Part shown: piece by piece, positions 6,369-19,718 of the stretch
Layout of the letters: each line of letters opens with the position of its first letter
Numbering within the stretch: position 1 is the first letter of the stretch
Origin: Alteromonadaceae bacterium
GTDB lineage: Bacteria; Pseudomonadota; Gammaproteobacteria; Enterobacterales; Alteromonadaceae
Direction: 5' to 3'
DNA: 64,000 bases
NCBI GenBank assembly: GCA_013373625.1
Contig: JABXHM010000012.1
Span: 1 to 64,000 of the forward strand
Translations under genes and position numbers: made by a program
The notes under the pieces: generated by a model
What the model was told of the DNA's origin: nothing
What the model saw: the letters and a program-made list of their open reading frames with translations, nothing else
Database searches by the model: none

Positions 6369-7445
6369 TTAATACAGCAAGTTAGTTTTAAGTTGCTGAA
6401 TTTGTGCGTCACTGACGCCCAGTTCTTCGCGAATGAAGGCATCAATTGAGCCGGATTGGGCAATCATTTCATCAAACGCAGCGTTCAGGTAACTCTCCCG
6501 TGTGCCCATTAGTGCACCGATGGCAGGCTTTGGCAGCCTGGCGAACATCGCCATAGCCGGATCCTGTTCTTTGGAAGCATCCTGTTTACCCATCAGATCT
6601 TCCGGGCGCAGGATTTGCTCAGATAACACGTAGTCGGCCATGATCACTTCTTTTTCTACACCCAGTGCATGCAATATAAGAGCAGCAGCCACACCGGTGC
6701 GATCCTTACCGGCAGTACAATGAAACAGCAGGGGCGTGTCATTTGATGCCAGTTCAGCAAACATGGCTTTATAGTGAGGCTTTTGCTGGTTTAACAGGCC
6801 AGGGTACATCGACGCCATAGCGTGCTCCATATCCTGCTCTGATACCCGCCCGGCCATGATCATTTCTTTAAAGGCCGCACCGTCAAATTCCAGTTGGTAA
6901 TCCCAGGTCATATGGTTTATGTCACCAGCCTGCCATTGTGTTTGCTCGTTGTCGCGTTCGCTGTTGCCCCGAAAGTCAACCACGGTTTGTATCGCTAATT
7001 CTTCAAGCAGAGCATAATCTTGTGCCTTGAGGTTATGCAGCGCTCCGGAGCGATACAGTTTACCCCACTTAACCGTTTTTCCTTCACGGGTTTCATAACC
7101 ACCTAAATCGCGAAAGTTACGGCCACCTTCGAGGTTTAATAAACGTGAACGCGTCACGGCTTGCTCTCCATCCTGTTCGGTAAAAGTAAATGTATAGCGG
7201 TCCTGCTTGGGCGCTTGCCATTCAATAGTCTTGATTGTATTGCCAAGCTGCTCACCGACAACAATACTGGTTGAGCTATTGAGCTCTCCGCTTGCCACAA
7301 TGCTGACGGGCTTTTCGGCATGCCAGCTTAGCGTATACAAGCGACTGTCGCGGTCTAATTCGGCACGGACATCCAGGGCAATGGCATTGAAACTAAGGGT
7401 GGTTAACCCTGCGACCAAGGGCATAAAAATATTCAGTTGTTTCAT
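6369..7445 (-). CDS. Exported tyrosine-phosphatase family protein (Y_phosphatase3 type)
   Basis: 358 residues. The N-terminus is a cleavable signal peptide (MKQLNIFMPLVAGLTTLSFNAIA), which favours the ATG at 7445 over one ten codons upstream; GGAG lies nine bases before it. A beta-rich domain covers about 25-100. The catalytic half begins with RNFRDLGGY at 109-117 and holds the Cys-phosphatase P-loop HCTAGKDRTG at 242-251, with nucleophile Cys243 and Arg249 intact. This motif is that of the MptpB-like family, whose members act on phosphotyrosine, phosphoserine and phosphoinositides. A periplasmic location argues for scavenging phosphate from organic esters rather than cell signalling. It follows the TonB-dependent receptor by 100 bases on the same strand and is probably co-transcribed with it. 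Confidence 0.88.
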   Translation of the reverse strand: MKQLNIFMPLVAGLTTLSFNAIALDVRAELDRDSRLYTLSWHAEKPVSIVASGELNSSTSIVVGEQLGNTIKTIEWQAPKQDRYTFTFTEQDGEQAVTRSRLLNLEGGRNFRDLGGYETREGKTVKWGKLYRSGALHNLKAQDYALLEELAIQTVVDFRGNSERDNEQTQWQAGDINHMTWDYQLEFDGAAFKEMIMAGRVSEQDMEHAMASMYPGLLNQQKPHYKAMFAELASNDTPLLFHCTAGKDRTGVAAALILHALGVEKEVIMADYVLSEQILRPEDLMGKQDASKEQDPAMAMFARLPKPAIGALMGTRESYLNAAFDEMIAQSGSIDAFIREELGVSDAQIQQLKTNLLY

Positions 7446-7545
7446 TGATACAGGCTCCATAATTGCCGCCAGCATCTTTCGGTTTGCGCGTCACAGACTG
7501 CTCTGAACACGCGCACCAAGGATGGCGGCAGTGGTTAATTAACAA

Positions 7546-10089
7546 TTAGTAGTTAAGGCGCAAGCCAAGTAAAAAACGGCGGCCATAACTTTCAGACTGA
7601 TTCACTGTGCCATTGCCGGCGTAACGTAAGTCTGTTTCATCGGTGAGGTTATTGGCATTGAAATATACCGTTGCCGATACCGGACCCGAAACTGACTCTG
7701 GTAAGGTGTATTGCAGGTTAAAGTCAACCCGGCTTTGTTCACCCCAATACTCGGTAGGATCCTCAATAGGTGAAATCCATTCGTCGCGATACTGGTAGTT
7801 GAGGCGAGCCGAGATGCCATAGCTTTCATAAAATACTGAGGCGTTGTAGATGAGGTCAGAAGTACCCGGCAAATCAAGCGTGTCGTTGTTAATGGTGGTA
7901 AATTCTGAACTGACAAAAGTCGCGTTTGCACTGATTCCCCAACCGGTTAAGACCGGAACAAAATCATCGGCAACGCCGGTAAAGTTGAGTTCAAGGCCAG
8001 CGACTTGTCCGTCAGAGCCATTGACCGGACCAGACAGCTCCCAGGTTTCGCCTGGTTGTCCGCCGTACACGCCGCCATCGACATTTTTGATATCGGTGTA
8101 AATAACATTGTCGACGAAACGGGAAAATACCGATGCCGATACCAGGCTTCCCGGTGCAAAATAGTATTCGAGTGTGGCATCCAGCCCATATGATTCCTCA
8201 GCCTCCAGCGAGGGGTTACCTCCGGAAACGGTTTTGGGGGTGGCGGTGGGGTTAACAGTGGCGGCGGCCCGCCACTCCTGGTAAGTCGGACGGTTTACAC
8301 CGCTTGAGAAAGAGATCCGGGCAATGGTGTTATCGGTAATGTTGTAGTTAATGTGTGCACTGGGCAGGACGTTAGTAAAGCTGTCCTGATAGTTGACAGG
8401 CGTCTGGTCACCGGTTTCATCGTCGATAAGCGTACCAACAGAGCTATAGTCGGTTTGTTCAACGCGCACACCATACACAATGTTACCCCAGTTGAAGCGT
8501 GATACCATCATGGCGTAAATCGCTGTGATATCTTCTTCAATATGAGTCCGTTGGTCTGCAGATGCAGCCGGGAACAGTTCAGCACCAGTGGCTTCCCAGT
8601 CCTTTCTTAACCGGGCGTTGTCCCAGTACCTGGCATTGATACTGTTGGAAGTATTTGACTCCCAGGGGTCATCTGTCAGATAACTGTTTACATCCAGTGC
8701 CACACCGCCCAACGCAGGAATAAACGCCAGTAAGTCAAACTCCACAATGTTTTCGCCGTTGGCGGTTCGCTGGTTATATTCAGCACCGGCGGTAAAGGTC
8801 GAAGGTAAACCTAAAAAGGCCATATCTTTGGTGGCATCAAGTTTAATTTTGTCAGCATCCACATTCAGTGGTGTGGCAATCTTGTATGCATAGGTAGACG
8901 TTGGTCCGAATACTATATCGTCGACCGGTGTGGCAGAGGTAATAATAGGATCTTCGATATCCGTAAGATCGGCATTGATCAGGTGAATATCGGCAGCATA
9001 ACCGTTCAGAAAGTCGAGCCCGGATTGATAAATAATGGGCAATTGGGTTGAAAACTCGGTTTCCGTAACATTGTAGCGCAGGGCAATATCCCAGCCGCCC
9101 GCTAAAAAGTCGCTGCCGAAGGTAACGGTTTGGGTGGAGTTACTGTACTGACCATCCTGCAATAAACGATCAATATAAACCGGTGCGTTTTCAACCACTG
9201 GTCCCACCGGTGAAGTGGCAAAGTTAAACACGTACTGACTGCGTTGTTCATAATCATTAAATTCAGAATACAGACCAGATACAAAAAAGCGACTCCCGGT
9301 ATCAGTGCGGTATTCTATGCGACCCCCATAAGCGTTGTCTTCGCGGGTAACTTTATAACTACGCATATCAATACTGTTGATCGCGCCATTCGCCTCTAAA
9401 TCGTACTCGCGGTTATCGGTAATTTGCTCACGGCTGTTTTTTGAGTAAAACCCCATGATGCCAAAATGGTCATTAGAATATGACAGGCGCGAGGCAAATT
9501 TTTCAATGTCACCATCACCGAGTTGCTGGCGACCCAAACCGACATCGATGTCCGCTGCAAAGCCTGCACGATCAAAAGGGTTAAACGTTTCTATATTAAC
9601 GTAGCCCGCCACAGCCTCGCCGGTCATTGACGGTAGCACTGCCTTGTTGACTTCTATACGGCGTGTAATCACAGCCGGAAATGAGTCAAAGCGAGGAATG
9701 CGGCCGTTTTCCGCGCCGGGAACATCAATACCGTCAAAACCAATAGCAGTGTAACGAAAGGGCATACCGCGAAAGTTTATATAGCGCGCCTGGCCCTGAT
9801 CCCGCTCGATGGCTAAGCCTGGCACACGGCCCAATGAGTCAGCCAGATTTTGATCAGGAAAGCGACCAATGGTATCAGCGGCAATGACTTCCATAACGTT
9901 TGAGGCCACTCGTTTTGCTTCAATAGCGGCGGTTTGGCTGTCTTTAATGGGGGAGGCTAACGCAACGACTTCTTCCATTTCTTGATTGCGGTTTTGTGCC
10001 GACTGACTCTGTTGCGACGATTGTGCCTGTGCCGCTGAGATACCCAAAGCGGTGAGTACCGCAAGGGCAATAATTGAATGTGTTTTCAT
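7546..10089 (-). CDS. TonB-dependent outer-membrane receptor (TonB_Xanth_Caul-like)
   Basis: 847 residues. A signal peptide (MKTHSIIALAVLTALGISAAQAQ) is followed by a short linker, then a plug domain with DTIGRFPDQNLADSLGRVPG and INFRGMPFRYTAIGFDGI, and a barrel ending in the aromatic YGRRFLLGLRLNY that the BAM complex recognises. This plug is typical of the large receptor group in Xanthomonas, Caulobacter and Alteromonadales that imports carbohydrates and other sizeable nutrients rather than siderophores. The ligand is not readable directly. The downstream exported phosphatase and the Pho-box-like site upstream suggest a phosphorylated compound. GGAG precedes the ATG at six bases. Confidence 0.92.
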   Translation of the reverse strand: MKTHSIIALAVLTALGISAAQAQSSQQSQSAQNRNQEMEEVVALASPIKDSQTAAIEAKRVASNVMEVIAADTIGRFPDQNLADSLGRVPGLAIERDQGQARYINFRGMPFRYTAIGFDGIDVPGAENGRIPRFDSFPAVITRRIEVNKAVLPSMTGEAVAGYVNIETFNPFDRAGFAADIDVGLGRQQLGDGDIEKFASRLSYSNDHFGIMGFYSKNSREQITDNREYDLEANGAINSIDMRSYKVTREDNAYGGRIEYRTDTGSRFFVSGLYSEFNDYEQRSQYVFNFATSPVGPVVENAPVYIDRLLQDGQYSNSTQTVTFGSDFLAGGWDIALRYNVTETEFSTQLPIIYQSGLDFLNGYAADIHLINADLTDIEDPIITSATPVDDIVFGPTSTYAYKIATPLNVDADKIKLDATKDMAFLGLPSTFTAGAEYNQRTANGENIVEFDLLAFIPALGGVALDVNSYLTDDPWESNTSNSINARYWDNARLRKDWEATGAELFPAASADQRTHIEEDITAIYAMMVSRFNWGNIVYGVRVEQTDYSSVGTLIDDETGDQTPVNYQDSFTNVLPSAHINYNITDNTIARISFSSGVNRPTYQEWRAAATVNPTATPKTVSGGNPSLEAEESYGLDATLEYYFAPGSLVSASVFSRFVDNVIYTDIKNVDGGVYGGQPGETWELSGPVNGSDGQVAGLELNFTGVADDFVPVLTGWGISANATFVSSEFTTINNDTLDLPGTSDLIYNASVFYESYGISARLNYQYRDEWISPIEDPTEYWGEQSRVDFNLQYTLPESVSGPVSATVYFNANNLTDETDLRYAGNGTVNQSESYGRRFLLGLRLNY

Positions 10090-10138
10090 GTCTTACTCCG
10101 ACGCTTTTAATTAGTTGACGGCAGTCTGCGAAAACACC

Positions 10139-10156
10139 ATGACATTCTTGTGACAT
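10139..10156 (-). promoter_or_regulatory. Pho-box-like site upstream of the TonB-dependent receptor
   Basis: On the minus strand the bases read ATGTCAC-AAGA-ATGTCAT: two TGTCA-bearing heptamers repeated every 11 bases with a four-base A-rich spacer, the layout of a PhoB-binding Pho box. It sits 50 bases upstream of the receptor start codon, in the gap after the preceding gene, where a -35-replacing activator site would be expected. No good -10 follows, so the assignment is an inference. Confidence 0.5.
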
Positions 10157-10215
10157 GGATGTCGGATAAAAAAATAAGATATCTCTAAAAAATAAAATTC
10201 AATTTAAACAGCATC

Positions 10216-11370
10216 TTAGAGCGTTTCAATTTTTTTGGATGACAGCGCGATACGATAGTCATATCGTAGTGAAGCGCCATCTCTGCGTGACTCAAACAGA
10301 AAAGCAGAAGCGAGATCTTCACCAAGTACAGCCGTAATTTCTTCCTTTATTTTGTTGCGGTTTTGATCGAGCTTTTTGGCCATCAGACCGTTGCGACGCA
10401 GATCATTGATGGCTTTCGCATGGCCACCATGTTGTTCCATCAAAGCTATAAGCTGCTCTGCCAGTAAGTGGTCGGCTTTGGTTGTGAGTGGATTCAGGAC
10501 CCAGCCTGTTTCGGTATTCTGGCGCTTGAGGGCATACCACAGGTAATAAAAGTAAGGCGTAGGCGTGAGTTTAATGGTAATGCCGTGTATGACAACCACC
10601 CTGCGGGGAATATCAAACGCTAAGGTAGCGTAGTGATCAAACGCCACTGCAAAAGACTGTTGGGGGTTTTCTGTACACTTATATGCAAGAGCCAGCCATT
10701 TGAGTTTTTGTATTGAAACCGGGCATGGGTTATGCCCGGCTATATTACTGATAATAGCCTTCAGGGGCATTGCTGATAGCTTGGGATGATTAGCAATCGC
10801 CTGTACCCATTGCTGCTGGTCGGGCTGTAATTGTTGTAATGCATCAATATCAGCACGTGACCAGTTTAATGCCTGGTACTGCGCAATCAGTGCTGTTTCC
10901 TGACGGGTAAGCGGGTGAGGTAAGTAGTACAAAGTAACTGCAATAAGTAAACACAAGACAAACTGACTACCAAGCAGGTTTAGCCAGTTAATTTGGCACT
11001 CAGCGGCCCCTGCGTAACTGAGATGGTGATGAGGATCGTTAAGCACCAACTCCCATTGCAAGCGTCTGAACAGGCGGGAATAAAATGTGACTTCAGGCTC
11101 TACACTTATGTTAGTAATGCGGCATTCCCTGAGCACCGGCACCAGACTGTCAATTTGCAGTGTATCCAGTTCCAGGCGAATTTTATTGAGCATAAAACTT
11201 ACGGCATCGTTATTTACGCCGCCAGAATAAATTTTACTCGGCGTGACCGAGGTATAAGCTTGTTGATACTGCTGATCAATAGAGCTCAGGATTCCCCATT
11301 TTGACCAGGCAACGGTAAGAAAACAACTTACTGCCCACAGCGCTACAAACAACGTAAAATGCCTAATCAT
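10216..11370 (-). CDS. Unrecognised inner-membrane protein with periplasmic loop and putative DNA-binding cytosolic part
   Basis: 384 residues; I do not recognise a named family. A helix at 5-22 and another at 129-150 bracket a periplasmic domain of about 105 residues with Cys83 and Cys125, which could form a disulfide. The remaining 230 residues are cytosolic and mainly helical. The last 110 residues begin with a strand (GITIKLTPTPYFYYLWYAL), continue through helices, and end with GLMAKKLDQNRNKIKEEI followed by a beta-hairpin-like LRYDYRIAL. That layout resembles a winged-helix output, but this is inference. The ATG overlaps the end of the upstream binding-protein-like gene by eight bases, so the two products are probably made in equal amounts and interact. 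The receptor operon lies 126 bases downstream. Confidence 0.7.
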   Translation of the reverse strand: MIRHFTLFVALWAVSCFLTVAWSKWGILSSIDQQYQQAYTSVTPSKIYSGGVNNDAVSFMLNKIRLELDTLQIDSLVPVLRECRITNISVEPEVTFYSRLFRRLQWELVLNDPHHHLSYAGAAECQINWLNLLGSQFVLCLLIAVTLYYLPHPLTRQETALIAQYQALNWSRADIDALQQLQPDQQQWVQAIANHPKLSAMPLKAIISNIAGHNPCPVSIQKLKWLALAYKCTENPQQSFAVAFDHYATLAFDIPRRVVVIHGITIKLTPTPYFYYLWYALKRQNTETGWVLNPLTTKADHLLAEQLIALMEQHGGHAKAINDLRRNGLMAKKLDQNRNKIKEEITAVLGEDLASAFLFESRRDGASLRYDYRIALSSKKIETL

Positions 11371-12190
11371 GTGGGCAACCCTCTGGCTCGGTCTGGGCTT
11401 GATTCAGGCCAACCAGCTTCGACATATACTCAATCAGTGGTGTCAGGGCGTCCGCAATTTCGCAAGTGACGGGATGAGGTAAGTGCCGGGCAAAAAAGAA
11501 ACTGGTACTGTTATTACTACTGATGACCGAGGTATAGCGAGCGTCAGGATGTCTGTTGGCAAACTGATCAATGGTGCTTAGCATATCAATATCACCCTGC
11601 TCAAATGCGTTATAGAGTGAGTAGATATCTGAGTAGTAGGTAATATTAAGCGTATCGATTGCGATTTGATGTGATTTGAGGCTCTGGAGTGGCAATAAAT
11701 AATGCGTGTGGCTGAGGGAGTCGTTAACCAGACCAATTCGGCGGGCGTTGAGTTCAGCGAAATTGATAGGATAACGACTGAACCAGCTTACTGAGAATCC
11801 ATCAATGTTAATAAGCGGCGCGTACAGATTGTCAAAGTCAGGTAGTAGCCCGTTAAGGCTGTGGGCGCGCCCCATGAGAACATCAAAGTCCTGGTTCAGC
11901 AAACTTACCGTTGACATGGATTCGCGTGGCAACCACGATACAGTGACGCTGGAATAATATTCGGCGATAACCGGTGATGCGCATAAGCGCCTGGACACTT
12001 GTTGCACTTTTGCAGGCATATACAGGCGAATGTGCAGCAGTGATTTATTGCTGGAACCTGTAGCGCAATTTAACTGGTTAAGCGATCCCAGGACAACTGA
12101 TGACGCAACATGTCGGGTGAGATACAAGTTGACACTTAACCCGACGAAAATCAGTAAACTGGTAATGAACAGAAAACGGTAACGGGACAT
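11363..12190 (-). CDS. Membrane-anchored PhnD-like periplasmic binding protein
   Basis: 275 residues from the ATG at 12190; a TTG ten codons earlier (12220) would add residues before the membrane helix and has no better ribosome site. Residues 6-25 form a signal or anchor helix. The rest looks like the type-2 periplasmic binding fold of the PhnD/ABC-phosphonate group: LLNQDFDVLMGRAHSLNG matches the conserved ligand strand, followed by RRIGLVNDSLSHTHYLLPLQSL and the AFEQGDIDMLSTID segment. No ABC permease or ATPase is nearby, so it is unlikely to serve uptake. Translational overlap with the following membrane protein points to a sensing role. The ligand could be phosphate- or phosphonate-like, as inferred from the neighbouring locus. 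Confidence 0.65.
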   Translation of the reverse strand: MSRYRFLFITSLLIFVGLSVNLYLTRHVASSVVLGSLNQLNCATGSSNKSLLHIRLYMPAKVQQVSRRLCASPVIAEYYSSVTVSWLPRESMSTVSLLNQDFDVLMGRAHSLNGLLPDFDNLYAPLINIDGFSVSWFSRYPINFAELNARRIGLVNDSLSHTHYLLPLQSLKSHQIAIDTLNITYYSDIYSLYNAFEQGDIDMLSTIDQFANRHPDARYTSVISSNNSTSFFFARHLPHPVTCEIADALTPLIEYMSKLVGLNQAQTEPEGCPHD

Positions 12191-12440
12191 TGGTACTGGC
12201 AAATAACAAACTAATCCCAAGTTTATGATGGTTTGGTTACAGTAATGTGAAAATGACAGTCGCCAATAACGCTCAACAAGCGGACCGAGTTACTCCCATG
12301 ATGCACTGGCGCTTTATAAAGAACGGCGCAAAAAGCCTGCTAACGTTTATATAATCTGGCGTTTTGTTTGCCCTGAGCCCCTGTCTATTCCCGTCATTGT
12401 AAAAAGAATATTAAGCTTCGCTCTCATAAACGGACTTTGG

Positions 12441-14738
12441 TTATTGCTTGCGCGTGAGGGGGAGTAACCATTGGTAATCAAACCATACCGGATTGGCTTG
12501 CAAAGCTGGCGCGGGTACCGGCCGTGATTCTGCGTTGGCTGCTGTGCGCAATAAAGAATATATCTGATGTTGGTGCGCTGCTGCTGGCGCTTGTTGAATA
12601 AACAGACTCATCTGCTCGTTCCATTTTTGCGTAGCCGGTTGGTCAGGCAGGGCAAGGAGTGCAGCGACAAAATGGTGGTTGTGGATATTTACCCGTTGAT
12701 CTGGTCCTTGCTGCAAGCGGCCAGTAAAAAACACGAAGGCGTCGTCGGTATTACCTGTCTGCATATAGGTGTTAAAAAGTACTGGCACCAGGCTGAATAT
12801 AGTATTGTCAAGCGACGGTAGATTCACTAACAGTTGCCGGGCAATTTCAGGTGCTTGCCGGGCCTGAGTGAAGCGCTGAAAACCCTGCCAAAAGCGCGCA
12901 TGCGGTGTATCGCCAAGCAACCTGGCGGTATGTTGAAACCACTCGTCGGCGTTTTCAGGCTGCCCCATCTCCATGTACAGTAAACCCAGATAGGCATTGT
13001 TAACCGGCGAGGCAGGATCTATACGATTCGACTGATGCATTGTGTCAATGGCGGCGGCTAGCTCACCGCGGCGGTGGTGTATTTTTGCGCGCCACACATA
13101 TGCCCAGGTATAGCTGTCGTCTATTTCAATTGCCTGCCCGGCAGATTGCAAGGCAGCCTCATAGTCACCACGCCAATAATACACTATGGCAAGATTCACG
13201 TTTATCCATGGTGATAACGGATCCTGTGCGTAGGCCTGGCGCGCATACGTGAGAGCGGTATCAAACTGGTTTCTGGCCAGCGCCAGTTCAGAGTGGATAT
13301 AAAGTGCTGTCGCGTTGTGCGGGTTACGCTTCAGTATGTCGTTGAGCGTCGCTTCGGCGAGTTTAAAATTGCCGTTATCAATAGCCAGTATGGTTTGTGC
13401 CAGCAACGCATTTTGCTCGGTAGGATCCTGTTTTAATGCGGTATTGATAGCGCTACGGGCCTTTCTATGGGCCTCCCCGCGCGGTAGATAGGTATCGTGA
13501 AAGTTATAGCGGGCGTATATATAGGCTAATTTACCATGTGCAGCGGCAAAATCAGGGGCTAAGTTTACCGCCTTTTGTAGCGCCGCTTCGGTTTGATAAT
13601 ACCATTCGCTGGTTTTACCGTTCATCAGCCAGTAGTTGCCTTTAAGGTAAAATTGGTAGGCTTCTACATTACTCACCGATCGCGTTTGTTGATCCACACT
13701 GTCAGCGGCAATTTGGGGCAGCAGCACCTGCTTAATCGCCGCGGCAATATTCTGCTGAATGGCATATAAACTGCTGGCCGTATTGGTATAGCTTTGTGAC
13801 CATGCGACGCGGTCACTATTGGCATCTATCAGACGTACCGATATTTTAAACTCATCTTTAATACGTCTGACGCTACCTTCAACCAGGTATCTGACATCCA
13901 GTTCGGTGGCGATCTGCATCAGAGATTTATCGGCAGTGTTAACCGCCAAAGTAGAGTATCGCGAGGGAACATTGAGTTCAGCAGTACTGGCCAGGGCATC
14001 GATAAGCTCTTCGGTCATACCCTCCGCAAGATAAAGCGTCGACTCGTCACTGCTTAACTGCCGCAAAGGCATAACGGCTACCGAGACACTCATTGGTGCT
14101 GTATTGTTTAACAAATCCGCTTTTTGTTGAGTGCTCATATAGCGCCATACAGACCCGCTAATGGCTAACAATACAATCGTGGTTATAACCAGTGTCCAGC
14201 GCTGTTTAACCGACCTAAACGCTATTGTTACCTTTGCTTTATCAGTCTTATCCTGAAGCGATGACTGCGTGGTAGCCGCTGGGTTGTGTGTTGTTGAGCT
14301 ATCCGTGCCCGGTGCTTTTGTATGAGTAGTGGGTTGCGGTTGACTGGCACTTTCAATGTGAGTCACAGGGCTATCTGGCACAGATGATTTAATGGCTGGC
14401 TTTTCCTGCCAGACGACTTCACCGCGTAATCGATAGCCTTTTTTAGGCACGGTTTGAATGAGTCGACGTTGCTGGCTGTCATTGAGAACCTGACGGAGCT
14501 GAGAAATGATCCGGGTCAGCGCTTCTTCTACTACGATCCTACCATTCCATACGTCACTGAGCAGTTCGTGGCGTTCTACGGTTTCGCCGGCGTCACAGGC
14601 CAGAATATACAGTACGTGTACGGCTTTTGGTTCGACGCGTTTTACCGACTTGCCGTGACGAACAGTATGATCGCCAATATCGACAACAAAATCATTGATA
14701 GTAAAACACCCTTTGCCGGGCAGCGGCTTAAAAGACAA
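12441..14738 (-). CDS. CadC/ToxR-like membrane transcription regulator with FlgO-like domain and TPRs
   Basis: 765 residues. An OmpR-type winged helix occupies about 10-105 (LLSDVWNGRIVVEEALTRIISQLR and VPKKGYRL are the recognition-helix and wing signatures). A Thr/Ser/Pro-rich linker runs to 175, a single membrane helix covers 181-198, and a FlgO-like domain follows (VAVMPLRQLSSDES, AEGMTEELIDALA, VRYLVEGSVRR). Tetratricopeptide repeats fill about 355-700 in the periplasm. Such one-component regulators sense outside the membrane and bind DNA directly. Translation appears to begin at TTG (14738), with GGAG nine bases before; the nearest ATG upstream hits a stop at once. It is divergent from the small TPR protein gene at 14971, the most likely target. 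Confidence 0.9.
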   Translation of the reverse strand: MSFKPLPGKGCFTINDFVVDIGDHTVRHGKSVKRVEPKAVHVLYILACDAGETVERHELLSDVWNGRIVVEEALTRIISQLRQVLNDSQQRRLIQTVPKKGYRLRGEVVWQEKPAIKSSVPDSPVTHIESASQPQPTTHTKAPGTDSSTTHNPAATTQSSLQDKTDKAKVTIAFRSVKQRWTLVITTIVLLAISGSVWRYMSTQQKADLLNNTAPMSVSVAVMPLRQLSSDESTLYLAEGMTEELIDALASTAELNVPSRYSTLAVNTADKSLMQIATELDVRYLVEGSVRRIKDEFKISVRLIDANSDRVAWSQSYTNTASSLYAIQQNIAAAIKQVLLPQIAADSVDQQTRSVSNVEAYQFYLKGNYWLMNGKTSEWYYQTEAALQKAVNLAPDFAAAHGKLAYIYARYNFHDTYLPRGEAHRKARSAINTALKQDPTEQNALLAQTILAIDNGNFKLAEATLNDILKRNPHNATALYIHSELALARNQFDTALTYARQAYAQDPLSPWINVNLAIVYYWRGDYEAALQSAGQAIEIDDSYTWAYVWRAKIHHRRGELAAAIDTMHQSNRIDPASPVNNAYLGLLYMEMGQPENADEWFQHTARLLGDTPHARFWQGFQRFTQARQAPEIARQLLVNLPSLDNTIFSLVPVLFNTYMQTGNTDDAFVFFTGRLQQGPDQRVNIHNHHFVAALLALPDQPATQKWNEQMSLFIQQAPAAAHQHQIYSLLRTAANAESRPVPAPALQANPVWFDYQWLLPLTRKQ

Positions 14739-14888
14739 CCTTTTTATCTCCGAAGATTCATTAGGTTTTTCTGTAACTAATTATAAATTAAAGAATTAAT
14801 TTATCTATTAGTAATTCGTTAGGATTTAATTATTTGTTCATCAGGCGTATCTATGGTTGATGACACATACTCAGTCGCAACAAAAATA

Positions 14889-14919
14889 TTAACAAGTAGT
14901 GGCTTTTTGTTAACAAGTA
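14889..14919 (+). repeat. Direct repeat of TTAACAAGTA, spaced 21 bases
   Basis: Two exact copies of TTAACAAGTA begin at 14889 and 14910, two helical turns apart, in the AT-rich gap between the CadC-like regulator and the small exported TPR protein. Phased direct repeats are what a ToxR/CadC-type dimer would bind. No protein-DNA evidence exists here, so the operator role is inferred. Confidence 0.5.
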
Positions 14920-14970
14920 TTTTGTGAACGATAAAGCCTAACAGAAAACATGTTCGTTGAGGAAATAACT

Positions 14971-15468
14971 ATGTCTTTTACTCGTCACATTGCTAAATCA
15001 CTAATCGCTGCTGCTTGCTGTTCACTAACGTTGGGTAGCGCCATAGCCGGCAGTACGTCTGGTCACATTACCGCTGATACCTATCGCCTGAAAACCAGTG
15101 TTGCTGACGTTAATGGTGTGCGTGAAATCGAATCTGGTCACTATGCCAAAGGTGTAGCGCGCACGAAAGCTGCGTTAGCGAAAACATCAGTCAGTGCTCG
15201 CCGCAGCCCGTTACACAATAACTTGTGTGTAGCATACGTCGCCATGGGTGAACTATCTGCTGCTAAACAACATTGTGATGCCGCAGTTGAAACCAGTAAA
15301 AACAACGTCTATGCACTCAATAACCGCGCTGTAATGAACTGCCTCACCGACAACCATCAGGCGTGTATTGCGGATTTGACCTGGGCGCAGCAAAAGTCAA
15401 AAGGTCAGCGTCTGGTAAAACAAAACCTGGATATCGCCAAACAACAGGATTTGTTGAGCAAAAATTAG
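14971..15468 (+). CDS. Small exported TPR-like protein
   Basis: 165 residues from the ATG at 14971, chosen because GAGGAAATAACT precedes it and because the resulting N-terminus is a good signal peptide ending in GSAIAG; an ATG seven codons earlier lacks both. The mature part carries about two to three helix-turn-helix tetratricopeptide-like units: residue patterns HNNLCVAYVAMGELSAAKQHC and ALNNRAVMNCLTDNHQACIADL. Cysteines in these units may pair in the periplasm. Function unknown. It is divergent from a CadC-like regulator whose own sensor part is built of TPRs, which suggests the pair belong together. Tandem terminators follow. Confidence 0.8.
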   Translation: MSFTRHIAKSLIAAACCSLTLGSAIAGSTSGHITADTYRLKTSVADVNGVREIESGHYAKGVARTKAALAKTSVSARRSPLHNNLCVAYVAMGELSAAKQHCDAAVETSKNNVYALNNRAVMNCLTDNHQACIADLTWAQQKSKGQRLVKQNLDIAKQQDLLSKN

Positions 15469-15529
15469 CCCTGAGCGCTTAACGAAAATATTTGCAGCAA
15501 CTGCTGTCGCTCTCCCGTTTTGAGCTGTA

Positions 15530-15552
15530 GCCCTTATTATGAGGGCCTTTTT
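15530..15552 (+). terminator. First of two tandem terminators after the TPR gene
   Basis: GCCCT at 15530-15534 pairs with AGGGC at 15542-15546 around TATTATG, followed by CTTTTT. A short rho-independent terminator for the plus-strand gene. Confidence 0.6.
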
Positions 15553-15581
15553 AGCCCCGATTCTATCGGGGCTTATTTTTT
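15553..15581 (+). terminator. Second, stronger terminator, shared with the convergent regA-like gene
   Basis: AGCCCCGA at 15553-15560 pairs with TCGGGGCT at 15566-15573 around TTCTA and is followed by TATTTTTT. The T-run overlaps the last codons and stop of the convergent minus-strand response regulator. Confidence 0.85.
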
Positions 15582-16106
15582 GGTCGGAGAAAATTTTTGT
15601 AACTTGCGTTGCAAGCTGCGCCGGTGCATGCCCAGTGATTCGGCTGTGCGTGAAACATTGCCATTGTTTTCATTAAGTACTCGTTGTATATGTTCCCATT
15701 CAACCTGAGCTGCCGTCAGATGTTGTAATCCGGATAGGGGCTCTTCTTCGTTGTTATTGTTTTGCAGTTTTTTGCGTAGCTCTGCAAAACTGGCCGGCTT
15801 GGCGAGATAATCTGTAGCCCCGCGCTTCATGGCCGTAACGGTAGTCGCAATGCTGGCATAGCCGGTCATCACGATTAAGTGCTCCGGGTTAAAGTGTTCT
15901 TTTAAGGCACTGATATAATCGAGTCCCAGCTCGTTGCCAATCATCATATCAAGCAAAATCCCGAAACACTTTACCTGAGGCGCTTTCAAGGCCTCACTCG
16001 CCTGATTAAATACAATGACTTCAAACTCTCCGGTCGCTAAGAAGCGTCGCTGCAGCACCTCGGTTAATCGCTGATCATCGTCAATAATAAGCAGTGTGGG
16101 TGTCAT
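15573..16106 (-). CDS. regA: RegA/PrrA/ActR-family redox response regulator
   Basis: 177 residues. The receiver has the acidic pocket IIDDD at 7-11, phosphoacceptor Asp53 in ILLDMM, Thr81 and Lys103 (LAKPAS). After a short linker the Fis-type helix-turn-helix at about 135-172 reads HIQRVLNENNGNVSRTAESLGMH then RRSLQRKLQK, the RegA/PrrA hallmark. In other proteobacteria this regulator adjusts respiration, cytochrome and redox genes to oxygen and quinone state. Its start codon overlaps the stop of the RegB-like kinase (ATGA at 16103-16106), so the pair is co-translated. It is the last gene of the same-strand series that begins with dld. Confidence 0.9.
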   Translation of the reverse strand: MTPTLLIIDDDQRLTEVLQRRFLATGEFEVIVFNQASEALKAPQVKCFGILLDMMIGNELGLDYISALKEHFNPEHLIVMTGYASIATTVTAMKRGATDYLAKPASFAELRKKLQNNNNEEEPLSGLQHLTAAQVEWEHIQRVLNENNGNVSRTAESLGMHRRSLQRKLQKFSPTKK

Positions 16107-17155
16107 ATAGTCTCCCTTGGAAGGGTGATGATAGTAATGACATGTTGGTTGTCACTGTTCCAGTTCACTTTACCGCCAAACTTTTCAATGGTTGCGTTGC
16201 TCAGTATGGCTCCTGCACCAAAGCCGGTCTGACTTTCGACCAGCCGTGCACCGAGGAAGTCGGGAGGCAGTGTTTTGTCGGCTGAAACAGGGTTGGTAAT
16301 TTTAAAACAAAGGGTATCAGCATCTAGCCAGGTTGTTACCTTCACGGGAGCGCCATTAGCGGCATCGCAAGCATTAATAACGATACTCGATAGTGCTGGC
16401 AGTAAGGTACGATCAGCTGTCACGCTGGCCGCTAATTCCTTGTCCGGCGCGGGCCAGTTTATATCTGCCTCAGGTCGAGCTAACAACAGGATTCGGCGTA
16501 TACCACGAATTAAGTCGCTTGCTGAAAAAGCCGATATCCGTGATTCCCGTACATCGTCAGCAACCTGTCGCCAGTTGTGCAACAGGTGTTGCAATTGGCG
16601 GAACTGAACAGATAAATCATCAACAAGTGATGCGGAAGGCGTTTCTTGCAGCTCTTCCAGTATCAGGTGCATGGTTTGGATGGGGGTGGCGGCATCGTGT
16701 GTGAGTTGCGCTGCGGCTGTGCCGATGGCCAGCAGCTGTTCATCACGTAGCTGGCGCTCGCGCAATTTTTGAATCGCTGCCGCTTTGGCGCTTAGCTGCA
16801 ACCGAAAATACAAAATCACAGTAGCGATTAACAAACTGGTTAAAATAAAACTGACAATCATGCCCTGGGCATGCTGTTGCATCATATCGCCGTGGCGATG
16901 CGCTGTTGGCAAGACTAATTGGGCACCTTGTGCCGCAATGCTGATACCCAGTACGGCTAAGCCATATTTAAAGGGCAACAGCGCCAGGCCCAGCACCAGC
17001 GGTACTAATAAAATGCTGCTGAAAGGGTTACTGGCCGCACCATTAACTGCGATTGACGCATTAACCAGCAGAATTTCAACCACCACGGTCATTAAGATAA
17101 TGCTTACCGGTGGCCTGCGGCCTCCGGAGTAAAGCAAATAGATAAGCAATAGCAT
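16103..17155 (-). CDS. regB: RegB/PrrB-family membrane sensor histidine kinase
   Basis: 350 residues. Hydrophobic helices fill about 1-118, then a dimerisation helix with His153 in LTHDAATPI, and an ATPase domain ending with GFGAGAILSNATIEKFGGKV. The quinone-site heptapeptide of RegB, GGxxNPF, is present as GAASNPF at 39-45. The conserved redox Cys of RegB, which lies in the helix after the H-box, is absent (the segment reads QFRQLQHLLHNWRQ). The N-terminus is short: the frame is open for only nine codons above the ATG and no start codon is available there, yet the peptide it would encode (FRYKGHQAI) resembles the missing first helix region of RegB. The partner RegA gene overlaps by four bases. 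Confidence 0.85.
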   Translation of the reverse strand: MLLLIYLLYSGGRRPPVSIILMTVVVEILLVNASIAVNGAASNPFSSILLVPLVLGLALLPFKYGLAVLGISIAAQGAQLVLPTAHRHGDMMQQHAQGMIVSFILTSLLIATVILYFRLQLSAKAAAIQKLRERQLRDEQLLAIGTAAAQLTHDAATPIQTMHLILEELQETPSASLVDDLSVQFRQLQHLLHNWRQVADDVRESRISAFSASDLIRGIRRILLLARPEADINWPAPDKELAASVTADRTLLPALSSIVINACDAANGAPVKVTTWLDADTLCFKITNPVSADKTLPPDFLGARLVESQTGFGAGAILSNATIEKFGGKVNWNSDNQHVITIITLPRETI

Positions 17156-17327
17156 GATAGCCTGGTGTCCCTTGTACCTGAATTAAGTTGTTTTTGGGGT
17201 AAATAGCTCGTTGCAGTATAGCGATAAATAATGCGTTTGGCTTCAGGTGTACAAGCCGAACTGAATGCGATATGTGCCGCCACAGTCAGGCACGGCTTTG
17301 GTTTGCATAAAACCAAAGCCAATCGTT

Positions 17328-19589
17328 TTAGAAGTTAACGCTGAATCCGGCGTATACGGAGCGACCCATGCCCGGTACAGCAATGCCATAGGGAATACCA
17401 TTTAGTGCCATTGTTACGCCCTGACCGGTGTAAGTGCCGCCGGTTGGATTAAAGTAAAACTGATCAAGTAAGTTCTCGACACCTATATCCACCCGAAACG
17501 CATCCCACTGATGGCCAACACGCACGTTAATCAGCCCGTATCCTGCGGTTTGGATTTCGTTTCGAATAACGGAAACATCGTCTTTTTTACTGGCTAACTG
17601 CCATTCAATTTCGCTTTGCCAACCCTGATATGCATGACTCAGGCGCAGGTTAGTTTGCAGTGGTATGATTTGATACAGCGCGCTTGAAGTCTCTGTGTTT
17701 TCGCTATGGGTGGCACTTAAGGATGCGGTAAGTTGCCAGTGTCCTGTTTTACCATGACTTAAATGCCAGTTGCCAGTGACATCCACGCCATAGAGACGGG
17801 CGGTCTGGTTCTCGTAGCGTAGTACATTAAACTGATTTTCCACCCACATATTATTGGCGGCAACGGCATCAATATAATCGTTGATATAAGTATAATAGGG
17901 CGAAATTACCAGCGAGTTGTCAGTCGTACTGTCCTGCCAGTTAATGCTGACAGAAATCGTATGGGCTTTTTCAGGTGACAGTGACACATTGCCCACATAA
18001 CCATTGCCATCGCCCACAAGGTTATTCATGCCTGCTGCCATCATCCAGTACGACCAGGTATATTTTTCATAAAGGTTAGGTGAGCGCACTTTATGGGCGT
18101 AGCCGAACTCAGTGCTGAGCTCGGCACTCGCGCGATAGCGCGCGACCATAGTCACATCCAGATTATGATCAGTACTGTGTCGGTCACTGTTATTGAACGC
18201 AGTGGCGTTCATTTGCTGCATGCCCGGTGCCATTTCACCGGTAGCATAGCCGCGTACCGGATCAGCGTCCATTGTCACGTTCTCATAACGCACGCCATAG
18301 AGCATCATCCAGTCACTCAACATGCTCTGCTCACGTTCAACATAGACCGCAGAGCGAGAGCGCTGACCATTATTAATGTTTTCAAATGTGCCGGGGCCCA
18401 TGCCGCCGCCTGAAGGAGGCCAGTAGTCATCCAAGCGGTAAATCTGAATGTCAGCGCCCACTCTCAGGACGTCGTTGGAGGCTATCTGATACTGGGTTTT
18501 TACGCTGAGCCCGGTATTGTCTGACTCACTGTACATCGGCATACCCGCGGCGCAAGTACCAGACGGGTCGCCCATAAACGATATAGGTGAGCAGCGCTGT
18601 CCCATTGCGGCATTAGTGCCGTACCAAAAACGTTTATCTGCGCCAAAGTCCATCATGTGGTCAACCTGCTCATGGTAGAGCCTTATCGACACAGTGCCCC
18701 AGTCGACATTATGTTGCCACAATGCGTTGAGATTGAGTTGTTCGTTGTTGAGTAAATCCATACGCTGGTTGGGGTAGAGTTGTTGCGGCATATTCTGGTA
18801 ATTAAGCTGCAAATCAAGCAGGTTATCTGCAAATTGATGAGCAACGCGTACGGTGTGGTTTTGGTTCTCAAAGGCAGACGAACCTACTTCATCGAGTGGC
18901 AGTTGATGGTTTGGTCTGCCGGTGGCTCGTTCTGACTTAAACGCTTTTGACGCACTGTAATTGTCTGCTTTACTCCAACTGCCGGTATAGCTGATAAACG
19001 TGTTGTCGGTAATATGCTGGACGTTCAGGTTGGTGCCTCTGGCCTGGTTATTGTGCCGATAGAATCCGCCAAACTCGCCACTCCACTGTGGTGCGCTGCC
19101 GGGGCTTAAAAATTCAGGGGCGCTTAACGATGCCTCAATCGTACCGCCAATACTATCGCCACCAACGCTGACTGGTGTAATGCCTGCAAAAACGATAATC
19201 TGGCCGACCTCAGTAGGGGCCAGGTACGACAAGGGGGGATTCATGTGGTTAGGACAGGATGCGATCAAATCCATACCGTTCACTTTAACCCGCAGACGAT
19301 CATCTGCGAGCCCATGAATAGCGGGCAATCCAGACAGTCCGCCGGTTGCATTAATATGCAGGCCGGCTAACCCGGTTAACAGGCTGGCGGTATCGCTGGT
19401 CGCGGCAGATTGTCGCTGAATGTCGTCTTTACTAAGCAATACCTTATGGCCAGACAAGGTTTGGCCAGCAGTACTGCCCTCAACATTTATGTGCTCAATG
19501 TTGTCATCGGCGAATAACGGACTGCTCAATGTCAGCAGTGCCAGTGTGAATCTGTTTAACATAAATAGTGCAGGAAATCGGTGTGTCAT
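17328..19589 (-). CDS. oprC: TonB-dependent copper receptor, OprC/NosA family
   Basis: 753 residues from the ATG at 19589, chosen because GGAGTAACA precedes it and a signal peptide follows (ending in SSPLFA); the frame extends 35 codons further up without a signal sequence. The plug contains DLIASCPNHMNPPLSYLAP, the OprC signature in which Cys112-xxx-Met116 is half of the copper site, and the barrel supplies His311-x-Met313 (DHMMD). LNYQNMPQQLYPNQRMD is another copper-receptor segment. The protein is rich in methionine (YWMMAAGMNN, MAPGMQQM). It ends with an aromatic beta-strand (SVYAGFSVNF) as expected for an outer-membrane barrel. It lies after two PepSY genes and before the RegBA pair, all on one strand. 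Confidence 0.92.
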   Translation of the reverse strand: MTHRFPALFMLNRFTLALLTLSSPLFADDNIEHINVEGSTAGQTLSGHKVLLSKDDIQRQSAATSDTASLLTGLAGLHINATGGLSGLPAIHGLADDRLRVKVNGMDLIASCPNHMNPPLSYLAPTEVGQIIVFAGITPVSVGGDSIGGTIEASLSAPEFLSPGSAPQWSGEFGGFYRHNNQARGTNLNVQHITDNTFISYTGSWSKADNYSASKAFKSERATGRPNHQLPLDEVGSSAFENQNHTVRVAHQFADNLLDLQLNYQNMPQQLYPNQRMDLLNNEQLNLNALWQHNVDWGTVSIRLYHEQVDHMMDFGADKRFWYGTNAAMGQRCSPISFMGDPSGTCAAGMPMYSESDNTGLSVKTQYQIASNDVLRVGADIQIYRLDDYWPPSGGGMGPGTFENINNGQRSRSAVYVEREQSMLSDWMMLYGVRYENVTMDADPVRGYATGEMAPGMQQMNATAFNNSDRHSTDHNLDVTMVARYRASAELSTEFGYAHKVRSPNLYEKYTWSYWMMAAGMNNLVGDGNGYVGNVSLSPEKAHTISVSINWQDSTTDNSLVISPYYTYINDYIDAVAANNMWVENQFNVLRYENQTARLYGVDVTGNWHLSHGKTGHWQLTASLSATHSENTETSSALYQIIPLQTNLRLSHAYQGWQSEIEWQLASKKDDVSVIRNEIQTAGYGLINVRVGHQWDAFRVDIGVENLLDQFYFNPTGGTYTGQGVTMALNGIPYGIAVPGMGRSVYAGFSVNF

Positions 19590-19718
19590 TGTTACTCCAG
19601 GCAGTTTTTCAGACCAATGCCAAGCCTTTGTTTTATTTTTAAGTACTTGACCGTTCGAATAATAATGAAAAGGAGTGGTTATGGCCTGCGACATATTGTC
19701 GCACTATCATCAAAGTGA

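Follow-up and report, generated by a model that had tools for sequence, protein, structure and literature searches.

The window, a 64,000-nt stretch of an Alteromonadaceae genome (contig JABXHM010000012.1, positions 1 to 64,000), carries on its minus strand two overlapping genes whose products, P0002 and P0001, are candidate components of a membrane-tethered transcription regulator. P0002 (275 aa, ATG start, 11363-12190) is a membrane-anchored, substrate-binding-protein-like candidate sensor, as judged from fold prediction and from the Pfam match of a paralogue at another locus of the same genome (L051). P0001 (384 aa, ATG start, 10216-11370) is predicted from its modelled fold to comprise two membrane helices, a periplasmic loop, a helical linker and a C-terminal OmpR-like winged helix. 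The two open reading frames (ORFs) share 8 bases (11363-11370), just as an earlier sequence-only reading of this DNA had placed them. Transcription of the minus strand runs through P0002, P0001, a gap of 126 bases, a gene for a TonB-dependent receptor (7546-10089; TIGR01782 of NCBIfam) and a gene for a Y_phosphatase3 protein with the motif HCTAGKDRTG (6369-7475; PF13350, E 2.7e-71), the last two being presumed genes 1 and 2 of the target operon. The true start of the phosphatase gene possibly lies later than its first ATG, and a TTG start at 12220 is likewise open for the P0002 frame. The gap features, on the same strand, a palindrome conserved in relatives and presumed to be the operator (site 1; AGAGATATCTTA at 10175-10186, TTAGAGATATCT at 10177-10188), a second, degenerate core GACATC read 20 bp from it (10158-10163), and a Pho-box-like direct repeat TGTCACA-N4-TGTCAT (10139-10155) that agrees at 13/13 fixed positions. 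Directly upstream of the pair, a CadC-like winged-helix regulator with tetratricopeptide repeats is encoded at 12441-14738, also on the minus strand.

Predicted products of the gene pair and their conservation

An AlphaFold2 model of P0001 based on 51 relatives (mean predicted local distance difference test score, pLDDT, 92.3; block means 96-98 over residues 251-380) begins with a helix at 2-41, followed by an alpha/beta part in the periplasm (about 54-127), a second helix (129-149), a helical linker (156-245) and a tail of strands (250-267), helices (270-357) and a hairpin (359-374). This layout bears out the two-helix membrane protein with periplasmic loop and cytosolic tail that had been read from the sequence. 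With its N-terminal sheet, helices and C-terminal hairpin, the tail is predicted to be an OmpR/CadC-like winged helix; a winged helix had been guessed at, and prediction of the tail structure by AlphaFold2, compared by VIA-align, returned the OmpR type and not an enzyme or other non-DNA-binding fold. VIA-align of residues 248-384 gave Z 9.5 for BaeR (root-mean-square deviation 3.0, 100 residues), 9.3 for CovR, 8.9 for CadC (5ju7) and 8.3 for PhoB, with 37 chains at Z >= 8 in a list from which a missing family is not thereby excluded. The stretch LDQNRNKIK lies in helix 331-349, at the place of the recognition helix, and is among the most conserved stretches of ten members from the host family in a whole-protein search. 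P0001 itself matches no Pfam family at E <= 1 and NCBIfam families at chance level only (E 0.15 and 0.79). Trans_reg_C (PF00486) is absent from the 20 Pfam families that any of 52 P0001-type members match at E <= 0.1, these being scattered weak matches of one or two members each (including RecX_HTH2 and a restriction enzyme). Matches of P0001 to TAL effectors (E down to 2e-8) were rejected as a many-repeat artefact that disappeared with the family profile, and those to ATP synthase b and spike proteins were weak and make no sense here.

The corresponding model of P0002 (50 relatives, mean pLDDT 93.8) has a substrate-binding-protein fold and a single N-terminal helix (3-25), which would be the membrane anchor. 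Its top solved matches in Foldseek include SocA, XAC2383 (5ub3, 5ub7), the phosphite binder PtxB, and HtxB, with E of about 1e-9 to 1e-8 and TM-scores under or near 0.5. The earlier description of P0002 as PhnD-like thus stands on fold and relatives, P0002 itself matching no Pfam family at E <= 1. Phosphonate-bd (PF12974) matches 15/51 P0002-type members at E 0.001-0.1, P0002 not being one of them, and the paralogue L051:9165-10031 exceeds the PF12974 cut-off (27.9 bits vs 27). In a profile alignment of P0002 with XAC2383 (whole chain E 0.05), an S-x-S-x-Y-L-L-P stretch lines up that holds the phosphorus group in PhnD-type proteins, and another paralogue, distinct from the one that exceeds the cut-off, aligns likewise to PhnD (E 0.67). 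These comparisons give weak hints of a phosphorus group in the ligand.

Relatives were sought in a scan of one genome per species (84,980 species), which yielded at least 60 loci, so that scan-based counts refer to the loci listed; the window and 60 scan loci make up a set of 61, in which the nine other pairs of the host family, found in single contigs, occur again. The search patterns were DQNRNK[IL]K and TP..Y..WY, and the conservation of these two stretches among scan loci is partly a result of that selection; the loci were found via the protein, not via the DNA site. A binding protein is encoded directly upstream of the P0001-type gene in 57/57 scan relatives with upstream sequence (55/55 called by script, L070 and L081 by eye; L087, L096 and L109 end at a contig edge), which is more than chance. 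The longest possible frames of the pair overlap in 46/55 relatives, where true starts may be later. By title, all scan loci belong to Gammaproteobacteria (one to Pseudomonadota only), among them Alteromonadaceae, Microbulbifer, Pseudoalteromonas, Vibrio, Endozoicomonas and Parahaliea. Within the host family, P0001 relatives occur in 9/147 genomes, and all 10/10 P0001-type ORFs form part of a pair, apart from one remnant: L053:8825-9055 (plus strand) retains 76 aa of the C-terminal part of P0001; it neighbours an ORF of 948 aa, and its genome contains an intact pair as well. No P0001 relative was found in the four other searched genomes of the host genus (0/4), and the pair hence looks like an accessory module.

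PhnD-type binding proteins come with an ABC (ATP-binding cassette) permease and an ATPase, whereas none was seen for P0002 in 6369-19694. The absence of a permease from the ORFs of this region (eight scanned with Pfam, a receptor-like one at 17328-19694 read by eye only) agrees with what had been noted before. P0002 might still serve, as an orphan binding protein, an ABC transporter encoded elsewhere, its overlap with P0001 reflecting chance gene packing, as its fold is close to those of phosphite and amino-acid binding proteins of such transporters. Given the constancy of the pairing in the scan relatives, the presence of a binding protein beside another partner in all five paralogous loci viewed (see below) and the lack of a permease beside the pair in the window, we regard this as very improbable.

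Palindrome, Pho-type box and phosphoesterase operon

The palindrome (TTTTAGAGATATCTCT / TTTTAGAGATATCTCTTTT) stands in the gap before the downstream gene in 52/58 loci, at no more than 2/12 mismatches and within -40 to +200 of the P0001-type stop, while the rest of the loci holds 27 matches in 855,853 bp. As a control, 59 permuted palindromes averaged 1.5/58 loci; the two that scored highest, at 35 and 16 loci, are this very site displaced by one base. Not among the 58 are L060, L062, L077, L080, L089, L091, L092, L107 and L114 (whose contigs, matched by length, repeat those of L042-L050), the remnant L053, L075 at the end of its contig, and L070 and L081 (P0001-type frame uncalled); the near-copies L063/L064, L100-L103 and L112/L113/L115 remain. 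Four of the six misses (L100-L103) have sites before a divergent receptor instead, and two (L044 and L106) have none. A second GATATC-like core follows 20 or 21 bases on in 20/47 loci, against 2/47 for all other spacings from 12 to 33 together; this set omits also L064, L101-L103, L113, L087, L096, L100, L104 and loci with no site at up to 2 mismatches. An extra perfect TTAGAGATATCTCTAA occurs about 720-780 bp before the P0001-type stop in L109, L111, L112, L113 and L115 (four Vibrio, one Endozoicomonas), where it falls within the longest P0001-type reading frame.

This palindrome and that of the paralogous loci described below were both first spotted by eye in the same locus sets in which they were later counted, and the independent tests are the whole-genome searches. 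The core TTAGAGAYATCT occurs once in the whole 5.09-Mb genome, at 10177-10188. In the 147 family genomes TTTAGAGAYATCTH has 52 matches and is found at the pair in 8/9 pair genomes (8/10 pairs); the 138 other genomes hold 40 matches, somewhat more than the 30 of the reversed control in 147. Together with the predicted winged-helix tail, this placement supports the earlier claim that the pair controls the adjacent receptor operon.

The palindrome could also be bound by another regulator, either a global one or the CadC-like protein encoded upstream, the pair then having some other task such as transporter sensing. DNA binding by P0001 is a prediction, the CadC-like gene lies just upstream in the window, and the rate of palindrome matches in pair-less genomes is slightly above control (0.29 vs 0.20 per genome). 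A single core per genome and near-control rates in pair-less genomes nevertheless speak against a global regulator. As to the CadC-like gene, blastp found no relative of it beside the pair in nine family loci, and the genes upstream of the pair vary in length between scan loci (a length comparison only). The site moreover precedes the receptor even where gene order differs (L100-L103). We consider binding by such another regulator distinctly unlikely, and a site for P0001 the better explanation.

A PhoB box consists of two TGTCA-type repeats 11 bp apart. The best match to TGTCACA-N4-TGTCAT or a looser form of it starts 25-26 bases past the centre of the first palindrome in 42/52 loci, and a box with up to 3/13 mismatches is present in 23/52 loci vs 75/11,274 control windows. 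Similar repeats precede the host's own phoB. Palindrome and strict Pho box taken as one pattern occur in the window's genome only (1/147). The strict box by itself was rejected as a genome-wide regulon finder, with 2 sites vs 3 for the reversed control, and its second site, between MATE-like and peptidase-like ORFs (labels by eye), was dropped.

Since the sign of regulation is not readable from sequence, the pair may instead act as a repressor, the apo binding protein keeping P0001 on the palindrome and the ligand releasing it. The second core abuts the Pho-box-like repeat, where a bound protein could block PhoB or polymerase. On the other side, the centre of site 1 lies some 25 bp upstream of the Pho-like box, which we infer to be the usual place of an activator. 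Repression therefore appears unlikely, though less so than the other alternatives, and activation is preferred.

A phosphoesterase operon adjoins the pair in 58/61 loci, the remainder being L075 (contig end), L096 and L102; family names of neighbours derive from Pfam on representatives and from blastp clusters for the others. Receptor and Y_phosphatase3 are found together in 37/61 loci (32 by family assignment; L072, L079, L099, L070 and L081 by phosphatase motif, the receptor start of L070 not having been viewed), SurE in 14, receptor and PI-PLC in 3, and two alkaline phosphatases in 1. In the four Pseudoalteromonas loci (L100-L103) the receptor is divergent, and the next gene downstream of the pair encodes an M28 peptidase; their phosphatase is Pfam-verified in L100 and matched by an ORF of equal length in L101 and L103, with none visible in L102, which ends there. 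The expectation that the pair would recur next to other TonB-dependent receptors is borne out in part, as in 15 loci the position directly downstream is taken not by a receptor but by SurE (14) or alkaline phosphatases (1). A receptor directly downstream is thus not obligatory, a phosphoesterase nearly so. Homologous pairs without any linked receptor or promoter, which had been named as evidence against the earlier claim, occur in part: the receptor is not directly linked in these 15 loci, but the palindrome is kept in 14/15 (all but L106), so that the target is better named a phosphorus-scavenging operon. In most SurE-type loci SurE is followed by a protein of about 160-230 aa (L048:11580-12269, L094, L098, L105, L112 and others), the single one tested having no Pfam match.

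Proposed mode of action

That the substrate contains phosphorus, and that PhoB shares in the control, is suggested by the Pho-like box together with the phosphoesterases. From these sequence features and the structural models, we consider it probable that P0002 and P0001 constitute a membrane-tethered transcription regulator of the co-component kind, which responds to a ligand containing phosphorus and acts jointly with PhoB on the scavenging operon next to it. Anchored by its single helix, P0002 would bind a small periplasmic ligand, most likely a phosphorus-containing organic compound, and would signal to the periplasmic loop of P0001. From there the signal would travel through the two membrane helices and the helical linker of P0001 and reach the winged helix in the cytosol. 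P0001 may bind as a dimer to site 1 (10175-10186), which lies shortly upstream of the box at which PhoB would sit, and weakly to the second core 20 bp further along, thereby activating the operon of receptor and phosphatase. Two conditions would then have to coincide for transcription: phosphate starvation, acting through PhoB, and presence of the substrate.

Several observations weigh against this interpretation. As for the fold of P0001, VIA-align Z of 7-8 is typical for models without a clear match and 9.5 is only moderately higher, and Foldseek gives poor E-values, no better than 0.24 for any match and 0.49 for a response-regulator domain. OmpR-type domains, besides, mostly bind direct repeats, and the site linked to P0001 is a palindrome. 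Amino-acid binding proteins rank equal to phosphite binders among the Foldseek matches of P0002, so that the ligand cannot be read from the fold. At the DNA level, neither the palindrome core (1 vs 3 for the reversed control) nor the strict box (2 vs 3) is enriched genome-wide, and for the core it is place, not number, that is informative. The box is loose in many relatives, no palindrome at up to 2 mismatches is present in L044 or L106, and L096 has the palindrome with no phosphoesterase beside it.

If the proposal is correct, the cell would make the receptor only under phosphate shortage with the substrate at hand. TonB-dependent receptors are numerous in marine bacteria, and their tie to a substrate is often unknown. 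Two unannotated genes, a candidate operator and a Pho-type box constitute a directly testable candidate switch, found in 61 loci including near-copies.

A second clade of pairs and relation to known systems

A second partner family, encoded after related binding proteins, occurs in 38/147 genomes, with one member in the window's genome (L051). In all five loci viewed (L051, L052, L054, L055, L056) the binding-protein gene immediately precedes that of the partner, and a large receptor-like ORF is close by (5/5); three encode a uridine kinase, a NupC transporter and an oxygenase, and two an S1/P1 nuclease (assigned with Pfam for L051 and L054, by eye for the others). Profile comparison of the two partner families (64% probability, E 6.5e-5, 68 columns) indicates that they are likely homologous. 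The paralogous loci feature a palindrome of their own, TTACTTATT-N2-AATAAGTAA, located 20-70 bases before the binding protein in the five loci and found in 28/30 fetched loci with up to 3/18 mismatches and in the other 2 within 4, as compared to a mean of 0.17 loci and at most 2 for shuffled half-sites. In the window's genome, a pattern written from the found site matches at the L051 locus and, more loosely, once elsewhere. The recognition-helix stretch differs by clade (LDQNRNKIK vs LDKTLSEIR), and one palindrome for each clade is the pattern that binding of these sites by the partner proteins would be expected to produce. A nucleoside locus with its own pair and palindrome (uridine kinase, NupC, 2-oxoglutarate-Fe(II) oxygenase and large receptor) recurs in L051, L055 and L056 and in the relatives L119-L148.

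XAC2383/XAC2382 of Xanthomonas citri also combine a PhnD-like binding protein with a membrane signalling protein, and have no ABC permease; the output of XAC2382 is a diguanylate cyclase, whereas that of P0001 is a predicted DNA-binding domain. CadC resembles P0001 in being membrane-tethered and, according to the model, in its winged-helix fold (the 5ju7 match above), but has an N-terminal winged helix and one membrane helix. Its partner is the transporter LysP, an association also given in PMC10269533.

VtrA/VtrC and ToxR/ToxS likewise join a membrane-tethered winged-helix factor to a membrane-anchored periplasmic partner from an adjacent, often overlapping gene (PMC9214523), an organization which that predicted for P0002 and P0001 resembles. 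In these systems the winged helix is N-terminal, there is a single membrane helix, and the periplasmic domain is C-terminal; P0001, in contrast, has a predicted C-terminal winged helix and two membrane helices. Periplasmic parts that form an obligate heterodimer are a further trait of these systems. Their partner is lipocalin-like, that of P0001 is encoded upstream and has a substrate-binding-protein fold. With both the defining layout and the partner fold differing, the pair is not filed as a member. The sequence-only claim that no named system is alike was nevertheless too strong, since co-component systems work alike (PMC9214523).

With a predicted transmembrane region and a DNA-binding domain in one protein, P0001 is also like the transmembrane transcription regulators (TTRs), and on its model the pair falls under their wide definition as worded in PMC10269533. 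There, 17% of TTRs have two membrane regions, and Rsp of Neisseria, with an N-terminal membrane receptor and a C-terminal DNA-binding domain, provides a precedent for the latter position. None of the TTR-associated proteins in its Table 1 (ToxS, TcpH, LysP, VtrC, YqeJ, PsaF, MyfF) is described there as a substrate-binding protein. As Pfam finds no family of the winged-helix kind in P0001, a domain-based survey would be expected to miss it. A literature search (titles and abstract starts of open-licence papers) found no paper on this pair.

It is tempting to speculate, and we lean somewhat towards the view, that these pairs represent an unrecognised class of regulators in marine Gammaproteobacteria. 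In it, a binding protein detached from transport would sense for a tethered winged-helix factor, in an arrangement reversed relative to ToxR and CadC. The class would comprise at least two clades, each with its own palindrome and class of scavenging operon, that of the window acting in series with PhoB. A binding protein would then do its sensing for a membrane-bound transcription factor and not for a transporter, kinase or cyclase. Comparing genomes for the palindromes could serve to identify targets and ligands.

Further upstream in the window, at 15573-17155 on the minus strand, the gene of a small Fis-type response regulator overlaps that of a sensor kinase with a weak kinase match; the two are presumably of the RegA/RegB or ActR/ActS sort.
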